Source: Phycisphaerales bacterium
GTDB lineage: Bacteria > Planctomycetota > Phycisphaerae > Phycisphaerales > UBA1924
DNA length: 64,000 bases
NCBI GenBank assembly: GCA_020847175.1
Contig: JADLCM010000039.1
Location: 62,001-126,000, forward strand
Direction: 5' to 3'
The first letter of the stretch is position 1, and the number at the start of each line of letters is the position of its first letter. The translations under genes were made by a program, and so were the position numbers. Positions 2,843-9,487 of the stretch are shown here, in pieces. Below the pieces are notes generated by a model that had not been told where the DNA came from, ran no database searches, and saw only the letters and a list, made by a program, of their open reading frames with translations.

Positions 2843-3229
2843 GCGGGCGGTCGCGCCGTGCCGGGGCACACCGGGCGCGATGCGCCAAGAGGAGCGGGTT
2901 CGGAATGCGCGCCCGCTCCAGCCGATGACGATCCGATCGGGAATGCCCGTGCGCCGTGTGCGCCTGCCTCGCCCGAGGGGCGGGGCGCCGAATCCGCGCG
3001 AGCGCGAGGCACGTGACCTGCGTATCCGCAATTGCCACCAGCAGGCGCCGGCGGCGAAACGTGTGCGCGCAGCGCGCGGTGCGGAGAGGCCCTGTCGGTT
3101 CGATCCCCCGGCCAAAGCGGCGCACGCTCGCGCCCCTTTCGAGCGGAGTCGGCCAACCTGCGCCGAAGCGCGACGGACTCGGGCCAACCCACGCCGGGGC
3201 GCAGCGGGCGCGCGACGATGCGCACGCCG
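2843..3229 (+). other. Non-coding stretch upstream of a sigma-54 promoter
   Basis: About 390 bases follow ispD without a convincing gene. The open frames here have no plausible start, no protein-like composition and conflict with one another. The 3' part carries two imperfect direct repeats (3145-3171 and 3175-3202) just upstream of a sigma-54 promoter, so it may hold activator-binding sites. Confidence 0.5.
3145..3202 (+). repeat. Pair of imperfect ~27-bp direct repeats, possible activator sites
   Basis: Copy one spans 3145-3171 and copy two 3175-3202. They share the cores GGAGTCGG/GGACTCGGG, CCAACC and CGCCG..GCGC. The centres lie about 30 bases apart and the pair ends 27 bases before the -24 element of the sigma-54 promoter. 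Binding of an enhancer-binding protein here is inference. Confidence 0.35.
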
Positions 3230-3245
3230 TGGCACGCTCGTTGCA
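3230..3245 (+). promoter_or_regulatory. Sigma-54 (RpoN) -24/-12 promoter
   Basis: The sequence TGGCACG-CTCG-TTGCA matches the sigma-54 consensus TGGCACG-N4-TTGCA at every specified base, with the invariant GG and GC dinucleotides 10 bases apart. It lies 138 bases before the ATG of the small secreted protein at 3383. I found no second site of this quality in the window. An NtrC-family activator with a cognate kinase is encoded within 4 kb downstream. Confidence 0.8.
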
Positions 3246-3382
3246 ATGCGGGTCACGTGCGCGTGAGGCCGACCACACGCACACCTTCGCTCGTGCAGGC
3301 CCGGAGGCGTACGACCGGGCACGCCCGAGCGAGGCAGGGATCGTCGGCGCATTCACACCACACTCACGATCGGAAGCAAGTC

Positions 3383-3784
3383 ATGAAGAAGTTCATCACA
3401 ATGTCCGCGCTCGGCCTGGTCCTCCTCTCCGGTGCGGGGTTCACCACGGCGGCCTCGGCCGCCGCGAGCCGCGAAGGCGTGCAGCGGGGCGACGAGACCC
3501 GCCTCATCGCCCGCGCCCGCACCCGGGGCGTGGCGATGCACGCCAAGGGAGACTACCGCGAGCGCGGCTCTCGCCGGCGCCTCAACGTCGAAGTGCGCCT
3601 GGGCACGCCCGGCGATGTCTTCGATGTCGCGGTCAACGGCGCCGTCATCGGGCAGGTCACGATCAATGCGCTCGGTCTCGGCAAGATCGAGATGAACACC
3701 AACGACGGCGCCAACCCCCCGTTCGTCGCTTCGGGCGACGTGCTCACGGTCGGCCCGGTCAGCGGATTGTTCATCGCCCGGTAA
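3383..3784 (+). CDS. Small secreted protein, probable sigma-54-dependent gene
   Basis: The 133-residue product begins with a clear Sec signal peptide (MKKFITMSALGLVLLSGAGF, then cleavage after TTAASA). The mature part is basic and beta-rich. It includes GDYRERGSRRRLNVEVRL, PGDVFDVAVNGAVIGQVT and GLGKIEMNTNDGANPPFV, a motif resembling secreted planctomycete and cyanobacterial proteins of unknown role. No catalytic residues are apparent. The ATG is preceded by GGAAGCAAG at 3371-3379. Transcription probably starts at the perfect sigma-54 promoter 138 bases upstream, and a GC-rich hairpin follows the stop, so this looks like a single-gene unit. Function is not known. Confidence 0.8.
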   Translation: MKKFITMSALGLVLLSGAGFTTAASAAASREGVQRGDETRLIARARTRGVAMHAKGDYRERGSRRRLNVEVRLGTPGDVFDVAVNGAVIGQVTINALGLGKIEMNTNDGANPPFVASGDVLTVGPVSGLFIAR

Positions 3785-4006: not shown

Positions 4007-4792
4007 ATGACCGGCCATCGTGGGGTTCAATCTCACCTGGACGCCGCGCCGCTCGCGCGGGCGTTCACGCTGGTCGAGATCCTGATCTCGATCGCGATCA
4101 TCGCGGTGTTGATCTCGCTGCTGCTGCCCGCCATGGCGGGCACGATGGGGAGCGCGCGCGGGTTCAAGTGCCAGATGTCGCAGCGCGCGGTGATGTTTGA
4201 CCTTCAGTTGTTCGCCGAGGGTGAAGTGCCCAAGGGCGACGACGACGGGCTCGCGGGCGGTCGCTTCAGGCTTGAAACGTTCCAGGAGTCGCAGTACCGC
4301 ATCGACGAGTTCTGGGGCTGGCCCGGACGCACCAGCGTCGCCTTGCCCGACGACGCGGGGAACGACCCGCTGCGCTGCGCCGCGATCCGCGGCGATGTGA
4401 CGCTCCGTTCCGGCGTGCCCTGCTCGCGCGGCGCGATCTCGCCCCCAGAGGCGGTGAGTTACGGGTTCAACGTGCGTCTGCACGTCGCAGAAGACACGCG
4501 GAACGGCGGCCCGTCCGTGCGCCCCGTGCTGCTCTCGCCCCGGATCGTCGAACAGTCAAACGTGCCGATCCTGTGGGACGTGGACGGCGCGCTGGCACGC
4601 GATCGCGCCGTGAGCCCCGTCTTCAGCGGGCCGAGCCTGGAGAGCGAGGTCGTCTTCGCCGGCGACCGGTACTGGTTCCCGGGGGCGCGCCACAACGGAT
4701 CAGCGAACTTCGCCTTCCTCGACGGGCGCGTGGAGTCCAGCCGCACGCCGCTCCACGAGGGCTGGGCGTGGGACTATTCGCCCGTGCGATAG
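4007..4792 (+). CDS. Type II pseudopilin-like protein with H-X9-DG motif
   Basis: The 261-residue product has a prepilin leader and hydrophobic helix (ARAFTLVEILISIAIIAVLI around residues 19-38), in which cleavage would fall before Phe and Glu5 is present. A C-terminal H-X9-DG segment (ARHNGSANFAFLDGRV) is also present. This combination marks the large planctomycete family of prepilin-type N-terminal cleavage/methylation proteins. They are processed by a PilD-type peptidase and thought to act in type II secretion-like or pilus-like assemblies. The ATG at 4007 is chosen because AGGAAGG at 3997-4003 is well placed. A TACACT hexamer at 3959-3964 could be its -10 element. No assembly ATPase is nearby, so it is a scattered minor pseudopilin. 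Confidence 0.9.
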   Translation: MTGHRGVQSHLDAAPLARAFTLVEILISIAIIAVLISLLLPAMAGTMGSARGFKCQMSQRAVMFDLQLFAEGEVPKGDDDGLAGGRFRLETFQESQYRIDEFWGWPGRTSVALPDDAGNDPLRCAAIRGDVTLRSGVPCSRGAISPPEAVSYGFNVRLHVAEDTRNGGPSVRPVLLSPRIVEQSNVPILWDVDGALARDRAVSPVFSGPSLESEVVFAGDRYWFPGARHNGSANFAFLDGRVESSRTPLHEGWAWDYSPVR

Positions 4793-4825: not shown

Positions 4826-6427
4826 ATGTCGCTTCGCACCAAGTTTGCGATCCTGCTGGCCATTCTCGCTCTCACGGTCCTCGGCGGGGCCGGGGCCGCG
4901 GCGTGGTCGTTCGGGCTGGAGCAGCGGGAGATTTCTGAACCCTTCGCGACGACCACGCGCATCCTGCGCGGCCTGTCCGACATCAAGCGCGGCGCTGAAG
5001 AACGCGCGACGCTGCTCCTCGGCCCCGCCGGATGGCCCGGCACCGACGCCCCAGCCGACGGTGCGACGCCGCAAGGTGTTCGTGGGTCACGCGCGGGGCG
5101 AGACACGCCGCTGAGCCGGGAGGAGCGCGAGCGGTTTGAGGCGCTCGCGCGGGCCGCGATGGAAGCCATCGATGAGCTCGAGGCCGCGCCGGGCTGGCGT
5201 GTGCGGGCGGGGATCCAGGCCGGGGGGCTCCTGCGCCAGGAGCTTCAGCGGGCGGATGCCTCGGTCCGCGCGTGGATGCAGGGCGGGGGCGATGCCGCGC
5301 TGCACGAGGCGGGCACCGAGTTCTTCTCGATCCACGAGCTGATCGAGCGCCTGGAGCGCCGGATCATCAGCGATGCGCGGCTGGCGGTGGATTTCGCCGC
5401 TCGGCTCCGGCAACGGCTGCTGGTGATCCTGGGCTTCACCATCGGCATCGCGGTGATGGTGGGGTTGCTCGGCCAGGCGCTGGTGAGCCGATGGGTGCTG
5501 CGACCGGTCGCCGCGCTGCGGACCGCGGCGGTGCGGATCGGCGCCGGCGACTACGGGCACCGGGTTGCGGTCGACGGGAGCGACGAGGTCGCGCAGCTCG
5601 CGGGGGAGGTCAACCACATGGCCTCGACCATCGGCGCGATGCAGGAAGAACGGATCCAGCGTGAGAAGCTCGCGGCGGTGGGGGAGATGGTGCGCCGGCT
5701 CGCGCACAACATCCGCAATCCGCTTTCTGGCATCCGCGGGCTGGCCGAGCTCACCCGGGCCGATCTGCCCTCGGAGAGCGACCTGCGCGAGAACCAGCAG
5801 CGGATCATCGAGTCGGTGGACAGGTTCGAGCACTGGCTTTCGGATCTGCTCAAGGCGACCAGGCCCGCCGGGGTTCAACCCCGCCCGACGCCCGTGCGCG
5901 AGTGGTTGACCCGGCTGGTCGATAGCCACCGGGCGATGGCGCAGGCGCGCCGGGTCAGCCTCGAGGTGCAGTTCGACGGCGCGCCCGACGAGGCGATGCT
6001 CGATCCCCAGCACCTGGAACACGCCCTGGTCGCGATTCTGGCCAACGCCATTTCGGCAAGCCCCGGCGGGGGAATCGTCCGAGTGACCGCGCGGGGTGGC
6101 CCTAACACCCATTGGGAGATAGAAATCCGAGATCAAGGCCAGGGGGTTCCTCTGGAATTGCGAGAGCGCATCTTTCAGCCGTACTTCACGACCAAGCGGG
6201 ATGGAACTGGCATCGGTCTTGCACTGGCACAGCAGGCGATTCGGGCGCACGGTGGAGTCATCCGGGTGGATGGCCTCTGCCGCAAGCCGGATGAGCCCAC
6301 ACGCGAGGAGACGGGAGCAGTTTTTACCGTACGGCTTCCTGTTTCACCCGCGATAGGCGAGAATGTGGCCAATACTGGCCAGGTGTCAGGAGTGCGCAGT
6401 GGCGAAAGTTTTGGTCATCGAGGATGA
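4826..6427 (+). CDS. Sensor histidine kinase (NtrB-like partner of the downstream regulator)
   Basis: The 533-residue membrane kinase has TM1 at about 7-28, an extracytoplasmic sensor region of about 165 residues, TM2 at about 198-222, a HAMP domain to about 275, a HisKA domain and a HATPase domain. In HisKA the phospho-acceptor is His294, in VRRLAHNIRNPLSG. The HATPase has Asn407 in the N box, DQGQG at 436-440, an F box (FQPYFTTK) and GTGIGLALA in the G2 box. The H-box sequence HNIRNPL resembles the NtrB/AtoS type that works with sigma-54 activators. The gene overlaps the response regulator start by 29 bases, so they form a two-component pair. The sensor region shows no known domain and the signal is unknown. 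The last ~350 bases have lower third-position GC than the rest of the gene. Confidence 0.95.
   Translation: MSLRTKFAILLAILALTVLGGAGAAAWSFGLEQREISEPFATTTRILRGLSDIKRGAEERATLLLGPAGWPGTDAPADGATPQGVRGSRAGRDTPLSREERERFEALARAAMEAIDELEAAPGWRVRAGIQAGGLLRQELQRADASVRAWMQGGGDAALHEAGTEFFSIHELIERLERRIISDARLAVDFAARLRQRLLVILGFTIGIAVMVGLLGQALVSRWVLRPVAALRTAAVRIGAGDYGHRVAVDGSDEVAQLAGEVNHMASTIGAMQEERIQREKLAAVGEMVRRLAHNIRNPLSGIRGLAELTRADLPSESDLRENQQRIIESVDRFEHWLSDLLKATRPAGVQPRPTPVREWLTRLVDSHRAMAQARRVSLEVQFDGAPDEAMLDPQHLEHALVAILANAISASPGGGIVRVTARGGPNTHWEIEIRDQGQGVPLELRERIFQPYFTTKRDGTGIGLALAQQAIRAHGGVIRVDGLCRKPDEPTREETGAVFTVRLPVSPAIGENVANTGQVSGVRSGESFGHRG
6366..6381 (+). repeat. Inverted repeat TGGCCA-ATAC-TGGCCA before the regulator start
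   Basis: Two self-palindromic TGGCCA boxes flank a 4-base spacer. The element lies inside the kinase C-terminal codons, 17 bases before the GTG start of the response regulator and 6 bases before its AGGAG. It could be an mRNA hairpin or an operator; this is speculative. Confidence 0.35.
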
Positions 6428-7898
6428 AGCGAACCTGCGGTACTCGATTCGCCAGACTTTGGCTCGGGCCGGGCACCAGGTCGCGGAGGCGGGCACGCTC
6501 TCAGATGCCCGGGCTCTGGCGGGTTCATCCACGTTTGACATCGTGCTCACCGACGTGATGCTCGGGCCGGAGAACGGCCTGGAATACCTCAAGGAACTTC
6601 GCGCCGAGGGGTTCGAGGGCGTGATCGTGGTGATGACGGCACACGGGAGCGTCGAGGCGGCGGTTGGAGCGATGCGGGATGGAGCGGACGATTATCTTCA
6701 GAAGCCGCTCAGCATGGAGGAGTTGAAGCTCCAAGTCTCCCGCTGGCTGGAGCAGCGCCGGGTGGTCAGTCGGCTCAAGTTGTATGAGCGGATGGAGCGT
6801 CACCGCGAGAACGAGCAGGAACTGCTCGGGGCGAGCGAGGCGTGGACGGGCACGCTGGGGCTCGCCGCGCGCCTGGCGGGTATGCCGGTGGAGTCGCCGA
6901 CGGATGACGCGGGGGGCGGGCTGCCGGTCGTGCTGCTGCTGGGCGAGACCGGGGTGGGCAAGGGTGCGCTGGCCCGGTTCATTCATGGGAGCGCGCAGGC
7001 CGGGGCGGAGTCGGGCAAGGGCGACACGCCGCCGTTTGTGCACGTGAACTGCTCGGCGCTGCCGGCATCGCTGGTGGAGGGAGAACTGTTCGGGCACGAG
7101 CGCGGGGCGTTCACCGACGCGAAGGAGGCGAGGCCCGGGCTGTTCGAGCTCGCGGAGGGGGGCACGATCTTCCTGGACGAGATCAGCGAGATGCCCATCG
7201 AGCTCCAGGCGAAACTGCTGGTGGTGGTGGAGCAAGGAACGTTCCGGCGGGTCGGGGGCACGCGCGAACGCCGGGTGCGGGCGCGGGTGATCGCGGCGTC
7301 GAACCAGGACCTGCTCAGGCGCGTGGAGGAGGGAAAGTTCCGGCGCGACCTGTACTACCGGCTCAACGCGTTCACCATCCAGATTCCGGCGCTGCGCGAC
7401 CGCGCGGGCGACGCAGAGATCATCGCCGATGCGCTGCTGGAACGCTTCGGGCGGCGCTACGGGCGGACGGGGCTGCGCCTCGGCACGAGTGCTCGGGCCG
7501 CGATCGCGGCGCACGCGTGGCCGGGCAATGTCCGCGAACTCGTCAACGCGATGCAGCGGGCGGCGATGCTGGCGCCCGGGGCGAACATCGAAGCCTCGGA
7601 CCTCGGCCTCGCGCACGCGGAGCGGGGACGTGCTCCGGCGCACGGGGCGGCGGGACAGGGCGAGCGCAGCGGGGGCGCCCTCAACGCGGCGCACGCGGGC
7701 GTACTGACCTTCGACTTCGTGGGGGGGCTGCACCTGGCGGACGACGTGGAGAAGGAGCTCCTCGTGCAGGCGCTGCGCCACACGCAGGGCAACGTGTCGC
7801 GGGCCGCCAAGCTCATCGGGATGCAGCGAAGCAGTTTCAGGTACCGCATCGAGAGGTACAAGCTGGAGGGGCATGTGAAGGAGCTCACCCGCTCATGA
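6399..7898 (+). CDS. NtrC-family sigma-54-dependent response regulator
   Basis: This 499-residue activator has a receiver domain (acidic Glu8-Asp9, phospho-acceptor Asp52 in VLTDVMLGP, Thr80, Lys102). Next comes a AAA+ domain with Walker A GETGVGKG (182-189), the sigma-54 contact loop reading GAFTDA rather than GAFTGA (236-241), Walker B IFLDE and the arginine-finger region FRRDLYYRLN. A C-terminal Fis-type helix-turn-helix spans about 453-485. Phosphorylation by the upstream kinase should drive oligomerisation and opening of sigma-54 promoters. GTG 6399 is chosen over an upstream ATG because AGGAG lies at 6388-6392 and the receiver domain begins VAKVLVIEDE there. It overlaps the kinase by 29 bases and the dockerin protein by 4. 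A likely target is the sigma-54 promoter at 3230. Confidence 0.95.
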   Translation: MAKVLVIEDEANLRYSIRQTLARAGHQVAEAGTLSDARALAGSSTFDIVLTDVMLGPENGLEYLKELRAEGFEGVIVVMTAHGSVEAAVGAMRDGADDYLQKPLSMEELKLQVSRWLEQRRVVSRLKLYERMERHRENEQELLGASEAWTGTLGLAARLAGMPVESPTDDAGGGLPVVLLLGETGVGKGALARFIHGSAQAGAESGKGDTPPFVHVNCSALPASLVEGELFGHERGAFTDAKEARPGLFELAEGGTIFLDEISEMPIELQAKLLVVVEQGTFRRVGGTRERRVRARVIAASNQDLLRRVEEGKFRRDLYYRLNAFTIQIPALRDRAGDAEIIADALLERFGRRYGRTGLRLGTSARAAIAAHAWPGNVRELVNAMQRAAMLAPGANIEASDLGLAHAERGRAPAHGAAGQGERSGGALNAAHAGVLTFDFVGGLHLADDVEKELLVQALRHTQGNVSRAAKLIGMQRSSFRYRIERYKLEGHVKELTRS

Positions 7899-9487
7899 GC
7901 GTGCCGACGGGACAGCGCGGGGCGCGCCGACGGCGCGCGGGGCGGGGTTGGGCCGGGGCGCTGGCGGCGCTCGCGGGGACGGGTCTGTGCGCGGCCCAGA
8001 ACAGTGCCGTGCACACCGACCCCGCGGGCGACGCGGCGCTCCGGCGGACGGACCTCGGCAACGACGGGGCCGTGCCGCCGGGGCACCTGCCCGACGTGCT
8101 TGAAGTTCGGCTGAGCGGGTGGTTGCCGGGGAGCATCGCGGACTCGTTCTCTGGCGCGACGACCCCCGGCGACATGGCGCACGTCTTCCGCCTTGACGTG
8201 GTCTTCGCGGGGCTCGTCAACCCGTCCGGGCCCGTAGGGCTGGGGGGCGAGGGGTTCGACCCGCTCCTTTTCGGGCCCAAGCCGCTGGTGGGGTTCTTCG
8301 AGCTCGACATCGACGATGAGAAGAACACCGGCGGAGAGTTGATCGGCGAGGCCACGCAGCATGTGCTGGCGAACGTCGCGCGGTTCGGCGGTGTGCCGTA
8401 CGACTCCGACGATGACCGCGTCGCGACATCGGCCGAGGACTACGACTTCGTGTTCTCCAGCGACCCGCAGTTCGAACGGTCTGGGGATGACTTCACGCTG
8501 GTGCTCTGCGGGTGCGAGACGCCGCAGATCGTGGGCCGCACGGGCGGCAACCAGGACGACGTGTTTGAGGAGGGCGAGACGTGGGTGGTCCGAGGGCGGT
8601 TCTTTGAGCGGGCGCGCGGCTACGCGCCGGCGAGCGGCGTCTTCGGCGGCAGCGACTTCGGCTTCTACGACCCGGTGGTCAACCTGCGGTTCAGCCACTC
8701 GATCGCGGACGATCGCACCACCGTCTCGCTCGTCTTCGCCCTCGACATGTCCGGCGCCGCGACCCTCACCGGGCAGCCCCAGCAGGCGATGGACAGCATC
8801 ATCGACCTCGGCGGCAATCACGCGAGCATCGAGGAGGCCGTGGCCGACCTCATCAACGCGGCGGGGCAATCCTGGAGCGATCCCGTCCGGGCGTACATCC
8901 GCGACTGGCGCGACCGGGACAGCGACGAACATCTGGACCCCACGGACTGGAAGGTGCAGTTCATCGTCGGCACGCCGTACGCCGCCGAGGCGGAGTCGCT
9001 CTATGCCTGGACGGACGCGGGCCTTGATCTCACGCCCGGTGACTTTGACGGTTCGGGCGATGTCGGACCGCCCGATCGGGCCGGGTTTGACGCGGCCCTT
9101 GCGGAACTCGATGGGTGCCCCTCCGACGGCGACGGGGCGCCGAACGGGCGCTTTCAGATCGTGGACTTCGGATACAACTTCAGCCTCTACGACGTCAACG
9201 CCGACGGCGTGGTGGATTGCCAGGATGTCGATGACTGCCCAGCGACCTGCCCGGGCGACCTGTCGGGTGCGAGCGATCCCAACGACCCCGGGTACGGCGT
9301 GCCCGACGGCTCGGTGGACGGGTCAGACTTCTTCTACTACCTCGACCAGTTTGTCGCGGGCAACATGAGCGTCGCCGATCTCACCGGCAGCAGCGACCCC
9401 AACAGCCCCTCGTACGGCGTGCCCGATGGGGCTATCGACGGCGCGGACTTCTTCGTGTACCTCGATTTCTTCGTCGAGGGGTGCTGA
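7895..9487 (+). CDS. Secreted protein with C-terminal GC-type dockerin-like repeats
   Basis: The 530-residue product has an Arg-rich N-terminus followed by a hydrophobic signal segment (WAGALAALAGTGLCAAQ). A large beta-rich ectodomain follows with no recognised catalytic motif. The C-terminus holds Ca-binding-like loops (GDFDGSGDVG, YDVNADGVVDCQD). Two near-identical repeats of about 40 residues come last, each reading DLSGASDPNDPGYGVPDG or DLTGSSDPNSPSYGVPDG then DGSDFF or DGADFF, and ending EGC at the terminus. This tail matches the GC-type dockerin anchoring domain typical of Phycisphaerae. The ATG overlaps the stop of the NtrC-family gene (ATGA), so the protein is translationally coupled to a two-component system, an unusual place for a cell-surface protein. 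Confidence 0.85.
   Translation: MSVPTGQRGARRRRAGRGWAGALAALAGTGLCAAQNSAVHTDPAGDAALRRTDLGNDGAVPPGHLPDVLEVRLSGWLPGSIADSFSGATTPGDMAHVFRLDVVFAGLVNPSGPVGLGGEGFDPLLFGPKPLVGFFELDIDDEKNTGGELIGEATQHVLANVARFGGVPYDSDDDRVATSAEDYDFVFSSDPQFERSGDDFTLVLCGCETPQIVGRTGGNQDDVFEEGETWVVRGRFFERARGYAPASGVFGGSDFGFYDPVVNLRFSHSIADDRTTVSLVFALDMSGAATLTGQPQQAMDSIIDLGGNHASIEEAVADLINAAGQSWSDPVRAYIRDWRDRDSDEHLDPTDWKVQFIVGTPYAAEAESLYAWTDAGLDLTPGDFDGSGDVGPPDRAGFDAALAELDGCPSDGDGAPNGRFQIVDFGYNFSLYDVNADGVVDCQDVDDCPATCPGDLSGASDPNDPGYGVPDGSVDGSDFFYYLDQFVAGNMSVADLTGSSDPNSPSYGVPDGAIDGADFFVYLDFFVEGC

Follow-up and report, generated by a model that had tools for sequence, protein, structure and literature searches.

A putative sigma-54 secretome regulon in Phycisphaerales, with a small secreted protein as a likely target of the adjacent NtrC-type regulator

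The PrsK-PrsR system, described by Haft and colleagues (2006), acts on PEP-CTERM target genes in which a repeated motif lies some 63 b ahead of the −24/−12 element (PMC1569441), and the RpoN dependence of a PEP-CTERM gene was shown later (PMC9850573). In PilS-PilR, the inner-membrane pilin pool is one of the cues (PMC6058289). On a broader scale, sigma-54 has been presented as a controller of the bacterial exterior (Francke et al. 2011, PMC3162934), in a survey whose text does not include planctomycetes. A 2025 survey of sigma-54 regulons (PMC12316311) does cover planctomycetes, without dockerin proteins or a TGGCCA motif. A literature search for the GC-type dockerin returned no paper.

We focus here on a 64,000-nucleotide stretch of a Phycisphaerales genome (the window), in which an earlier note had pointed to a perfect −24/−12 match 138 b before the gene for a 133-aa secreted protein (here called SMALL), with a kinase and a sigma-54 activator encoded downstream. 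All of these elements were recovered, the match without a single mismatch, the protein with a signal-peptide-like N-terminus and the kinase and regulator with their expected domains. The earlier note did not describe the four-gene operon to which the last two belong, nor a presumed operator that appears to be readable from the DNA. The features are as follows.

3150–3165, + strand: candidate upstream activator site CGGCCAACCTGCGCCG (GGC-N8-GCC), weak (p about 0.05 for the pair)
3181–3196, + strand: second candidate activator site GGGCCAACCCACGCCG, weak, 31 b (~3 helical turns) past CGGCCAACCTGCGCCG
3230–3245, + strand: −24/−12 sigma-54 promoter TGGCACGctcgTTGCA, conserved before homologues; predicted transcript start about 3256
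3383–3784, + strand: SMALL, secreted protein of 133 aa and putative target of sigma-54, distantly related to PGS Ig-like domains
4007–4792, + strand: prepilin-like protein with N-methylation motif and H-X9-DG C-terminus; first gene of the operon
4826–6427, + strand: membrane sensor histidine kinase (HAMP, HisKA, HATPase), conserved
6366–6381, + strand: perfect operator dyad TGGCCAATACTGGCCA, presumed autoregulatory site, 18 b before the regulator start
6399–7898, + strand: response regulator of the NtrC type, with receiver, sigma-54 AAA+ (GAFTDA) and Fis HTH domains
7895–9487, + strand: 530-aa secreted protein with GC-type dockerin C-terminus (NF041540, 82.3 bits, cut-off 29); last gene of the operon

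The locus shares with the PrsK/PrsR system of Proteobacteria a histidine kinase and NtrC-type regulator encoded in tandem, a repeated activator motif upstream of −24/−12, dispersed secreted-protein targets with a common C-terminal domain, and the co-occurrence of motif and regulator across genomes. However, the window regulator scores 301.3 against PrsR (TIGR02915, curated cut-off 502.6) and the kinase 74.3 against PrsK (TIGR02916, curated cut-off 300). The activator motif here is TGGCCA-N4-TGGCCA, unlike the PrsK/PrsR motif that ends in TTTACA, and the targets end in a GC-type dockerin instead of PEP-CTERM. A prepilin-like gene is part of the operon; at the window locus no TPR gene was recognized. 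Given the scores below both cut-offs and the differences in motif and target C-terminus, the window system appears best read as an analogue of PrsK/PrsR and not as a member. The linkage of a sensor kinase and NtrC-type regulator to a pilin-like gene likewise recalls PilS-PilR, but here the kinase carries a HAMP domain, the pilin-like protein is encoded by the first gene of the kinase operon, and the targets are mostly dispersed secreted proteins. Control of extracellular components by sigma-54 is the theme of Francke et al. 2011, to which a predicted regulator, operator and target class can here be added.

The regulator possesses the receiver, sigma-54 AAA+ and Fis HTH domains that define the NtrC type, and its sigma-54 contact loop has GAFTDA in place of GAFTGA, as seen in each of the 44 alignments examined. 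At a threshold of E ≤ 1e-110, 65 of the 163 genomes of the window's own family contain an orthologue, and the relatives closest in sequence belong to Phycisphaerales. Nearly all regulator loci examined preserve the order of prepilin-like protein, kinase, regulator and 530-aa protein, with the exceptions lying mostly at contig ends. Two genomes (G114 and G115; loci L149 and L150) display a tandem duplication of the whole operon.

The −24/−12 element TGGCACGCTCGTTGCA at 3230–3245 on the + strand matches the consensus with zero mismatches and has the GG at −24 and GC at −12, 10 b apart, of a sigma-54-dependent promoter. Downstream, the SMALL reading frame is preceded by a GGAAG ribosome site. No consensus terminator was found 3′ of SMALL, where the hairpin is no better than those of shuffled sequences. 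The genome encodes one copy of rpoN (contig C30, E 1.7e-57), as control by RpoN would require. The earlier note had also proposed a genome-wide search for −24/−12 to define the regulon. For the motif alone, exact TGGCAC-N5-TTGCW occurs at 5 sites in the 3.18 Mb genome versus 3 for a reversed control pattern; a perfect match is thus near chance in this genome and not significant by itself. The promoter is judged real because of its position and its conservation across relatives, not because of the motif match alone.

Homologues of SMALL were identified in 27 of the 163 own-family genomes and more thinly across the class; SMALL is absent from G001, a genome of the same genus. Perfect −24/−12 elements precede homologues in nine genomes from three families. 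They lie 88–153 b upstream in five own-family genomes (G000, G002, G021, G031 and G107), two of another family in the same order (G039 and G043) and one of a further family of the class (G238), and 241 b upstream in G363, from the same family as G238, where the start call is uncertain. Six more own-family genomes display a near-perfect element (with uncertain gene starts in G114 and G115) and 15 none; G106, with a very weak homologue, was left out of these promoter counts.

Dyads upstream of the SMALL promoter are strong in relatives and weak in the window, where the matrix-scored pair reaches p about 0.05 and the better site only −0.7 bits. Over the 11 own-family SMALL promoters the combined dyad p is 2e-9, or 1e-5 with fewer close relatives; the signal comes mainly from G031, G162, G171, G021 and G115, while G002, G107 and G172 fit poorly.

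Before the regulator gene, the presumed operator TGGCCAATACTGGCCA scores 26.7 bits with a matrix from which the window was excluded, versus 5.0 for the next site in the 64 kb. Of 42 loci, 27 have TGGCCA-N4-TGGCCA 29–51 b ahead of the regulator start, and in 24 of these the distance is 29–33 b. At L167, L176, L179, L181 and L024 other palindromes stand in its place, namely CGGCTGA..TCAGCCG and, in G002, whose SMALL promoter contains two TCAACC, GGTTGA..TCAACC; these are possibly drifted operators. Two other perfect dyad copies in the window's genome have no −24/−12 nearby, and the dyad alone, with up to 2 mismatches, is at chance level there (102 sites versus 106 in the control).

Other genomes also have −24/−12 sites beside the operon, ahead of genes for signal-peptide proteins that often contain FG-GAP-like repeats. 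These flanking sites, the SMALL promoters and one site of the window's genome make up a set of 17 promoters, chosen blind to the dyad. TGGCCA is enriched upstream of 10 of the 17 (0.66 expected) and TGGC-N8-GCCA, with at most one mismatch, upstream of 11 (1.4 expected). Several of the motif choices followed a look at the data, and the p values given throughout take no account of phylogeny. The gap of 8 is specific in that most other gaps are at or near expectation, with exact gap-10 copies in four promoters. The TGGCCA element recurs 60–120 b upstream of −24/−12.

The two elements were then joined into a signature, TGGCCA-N(55–85)-TGGCAY-N5-TTGCW, with the reversed pattern as control. It yields 47 matches in 29 of the 163 own-family genomes versus 2 in the control, and it is found in 25 of 65 regulator-bearing genomes versus 4 of 98 others (Fisher 2e-8); outside the family, in the class at large, matches are scarce and close to the control level. 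A signal-peptide-like ORF follows 35 of the 45 distinct promoters, a generous count in that the choice of ORF favored such starts. A GC-type dockerin end was detected by regular expression in 18 of the 35 complete ORFs behind the signature, and 6 of 10 scanned target proteins pass the NF041540 cut-off. Among the other targets are proteins with FG-GAP, Kelch, Ig, beta-helix, PepSY or multihaem cytochrome domains. The window's genome contains 83 GC-type dockerin matches, by our estimate a few percent of its genes, compared with none in 14 control genomes. Secreted proteins, those with a GC-type dockerin among them, would make up most of the regulon thus delineated, with SMALL as an apparently minor member.

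Could the perfect match before SMALL be a chance occurrence in a GC-rich genome, with transcription starting from another promoter? The closeness of exact and control counts genome-wide would suit this reading, but we regard it as very improbable: the exact motif stands before nine homologues, compared with an expectation of about 3e-4 per 400 b at the frequency of the window's genome, and no sigma-70-like site was found upstream of SMALL. Marginally less credible still is the proposal that the dyad ahead of the regulator gene owes its conservation to coding for the kinase C-terminus and not to binding a protein. The window copy does sit inside the overlapping kinase gene. At six loci, however, the kinase stop precedes the dyad, leaving it wholly non-coding, so coding constraint does not explain it; moreover, its central four bases vary freely, and unlinked promoters have the same sequence upstream.

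A stronger contender, although an unlikely one, holds that the −24/−12 before SMALL is real and responds to another sigma-54 activator, with the neighboring regulator driving only dockerin genes. The window's genome encodes five strong activator genes (the window regulator and four others), the window has weak operators before SMALL, and homologues outside the own family have a perfect −24/−12 with no clear dyad, all of which would be in keeping with such an arrangement. The distribution of the regulator argues otherwise, as own-family SMALL genes have a −24/−12 only where it is present: an orthologue occurs in 11 of 11 genomes with the element versus 3 of 15 without (Fisher 5e-5), or, per genus, in 8 of 8 versus 4 of 12 (p 0.005, counting a truncated orthologue in G183), with both p values treating the genomes as independent, although they are related. 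SMALL also adjoins the four-gene operon in the window and, in divergent orientation, in three other genomes, namely G002 and, with the perfect −24/−12, G039 and G043; the recurrence in another family indicates that the link is old. Dyads stronger than those of the window precede SMALL in G031, G162 and G171. In families still further removed, NtrC-type regulators are encoded within several kb of SMALL-like domains, which is no more than suggestive. We therefore retain, as the best and a probable explanation, a sigma-54 secretome regulon in which SMALL would be a target of the adjacent NtrC-type regulator. Control by RpoN through the neighboring pair, as the earlier note had supposed, is also the reading best supported by the presence of rpoN, the conserved −24/−12, the co-occurrence with the regulator and the recurrent linkage. 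For the family this control appears well supported; for the window's own genome we infer it.

In the regulon that we favor, the kinase would sense an envelope or secretion signal, possibly via the co-encoded prepilin-like protein, and, judging from the domain families, would phosphorylate the regulator. The regulator would then bind TGGCCA dyads, usually 60–120 b upstream of −24/−12 and often paired, and drive RpoN polymerase to transcribe secreted-protein genes, predicted to encode many GC-type dockerin proteins and some Ig-like proteins such as SMALL. By binding the dyad before its own gene it would probably set its own level. The DNA itself shows the promoter, the operator, the operon, the co-distribution and the class of targets; binding, phosphorylation, activation, the signal and what SMALL does are computational predictions. 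That the prepilin-like protein informs the kinase is an idea drawn from the conserved gene order and the analogy to PilS-PilR. A wider proposal, which we advance tentatively and hold to be possible, is that Phycisphaerales and a related family of the order use a dedicated two-component sigma-54 switch for the GC-type dockerin extracellular system, with its own operator code and a prepilin-like protein reporting secretion or pilus status to the kinase.

If correct, this reading would provide a defined sigma-54 regulon for this planctomycete group, one whose regulator, operator and target class are all predicted and can be read from the genomes of many uncultured organisms. It would tie GC-type dockerin proteins to a regulatory system, as was done earlier for PEP-CTERM proteins, and the regulation could be tested by heterologous reporter without culturing the organism.

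SMALL itself is secreted and probably an Ig-like beta domain; its role would most likely be that of a structural or adhesive part of the extracellular layer. The PGS Ig-like domain NF058592 scores 16.7 on SMALL, below its cut-off of 45, and is weakly matched by 12 of 15 homologues (best E 4.4e-6). Pfam gave no match for SMALL, and a profile search of solved structures no credible one; phage records likewise gave no match. A single-sequence AlphaFold model is all-beta with pLDDT 58, too poor for a fold search.

Several further sites were noted. In the window's genome, a perfect −24/−12 precedes an Hsp20 gene (L004, 1501–1516; L026, 5044–5469), with another sigma-54 activator ~3.3 kb away, and a near-perfect one (L007, 891–906) precedes flgB-flgC beside another sigma-54 activator; neither the Hsp20 nor the flgB promoter has a TGGCCA dyad (p 0.98 and 0.57). 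The −24/−12 sites on contig C8, without dyad or convincing gene, were rejected as regulon members, as was a combined-pattern match on contig C67 with no convincing gene behind it. The −24/−12-like match at 6208–6223 was dismissed as codons of the kinase GTGIGLA box; it occurs at the same place in orthologous kinases, and these codons are a recurring false positive in sigma-54 scans. An FG-GAP dockerin gene behind TGGCCA and −24/−12 in the window's genome (L029, 14340–15202) is split into two ORFs of 94 and 164 aa and is possibly disrupted or mis-assembled. At three loci (L204, L205 and L363), the promoter signature precedes multihaem cytochrome-like proteins.
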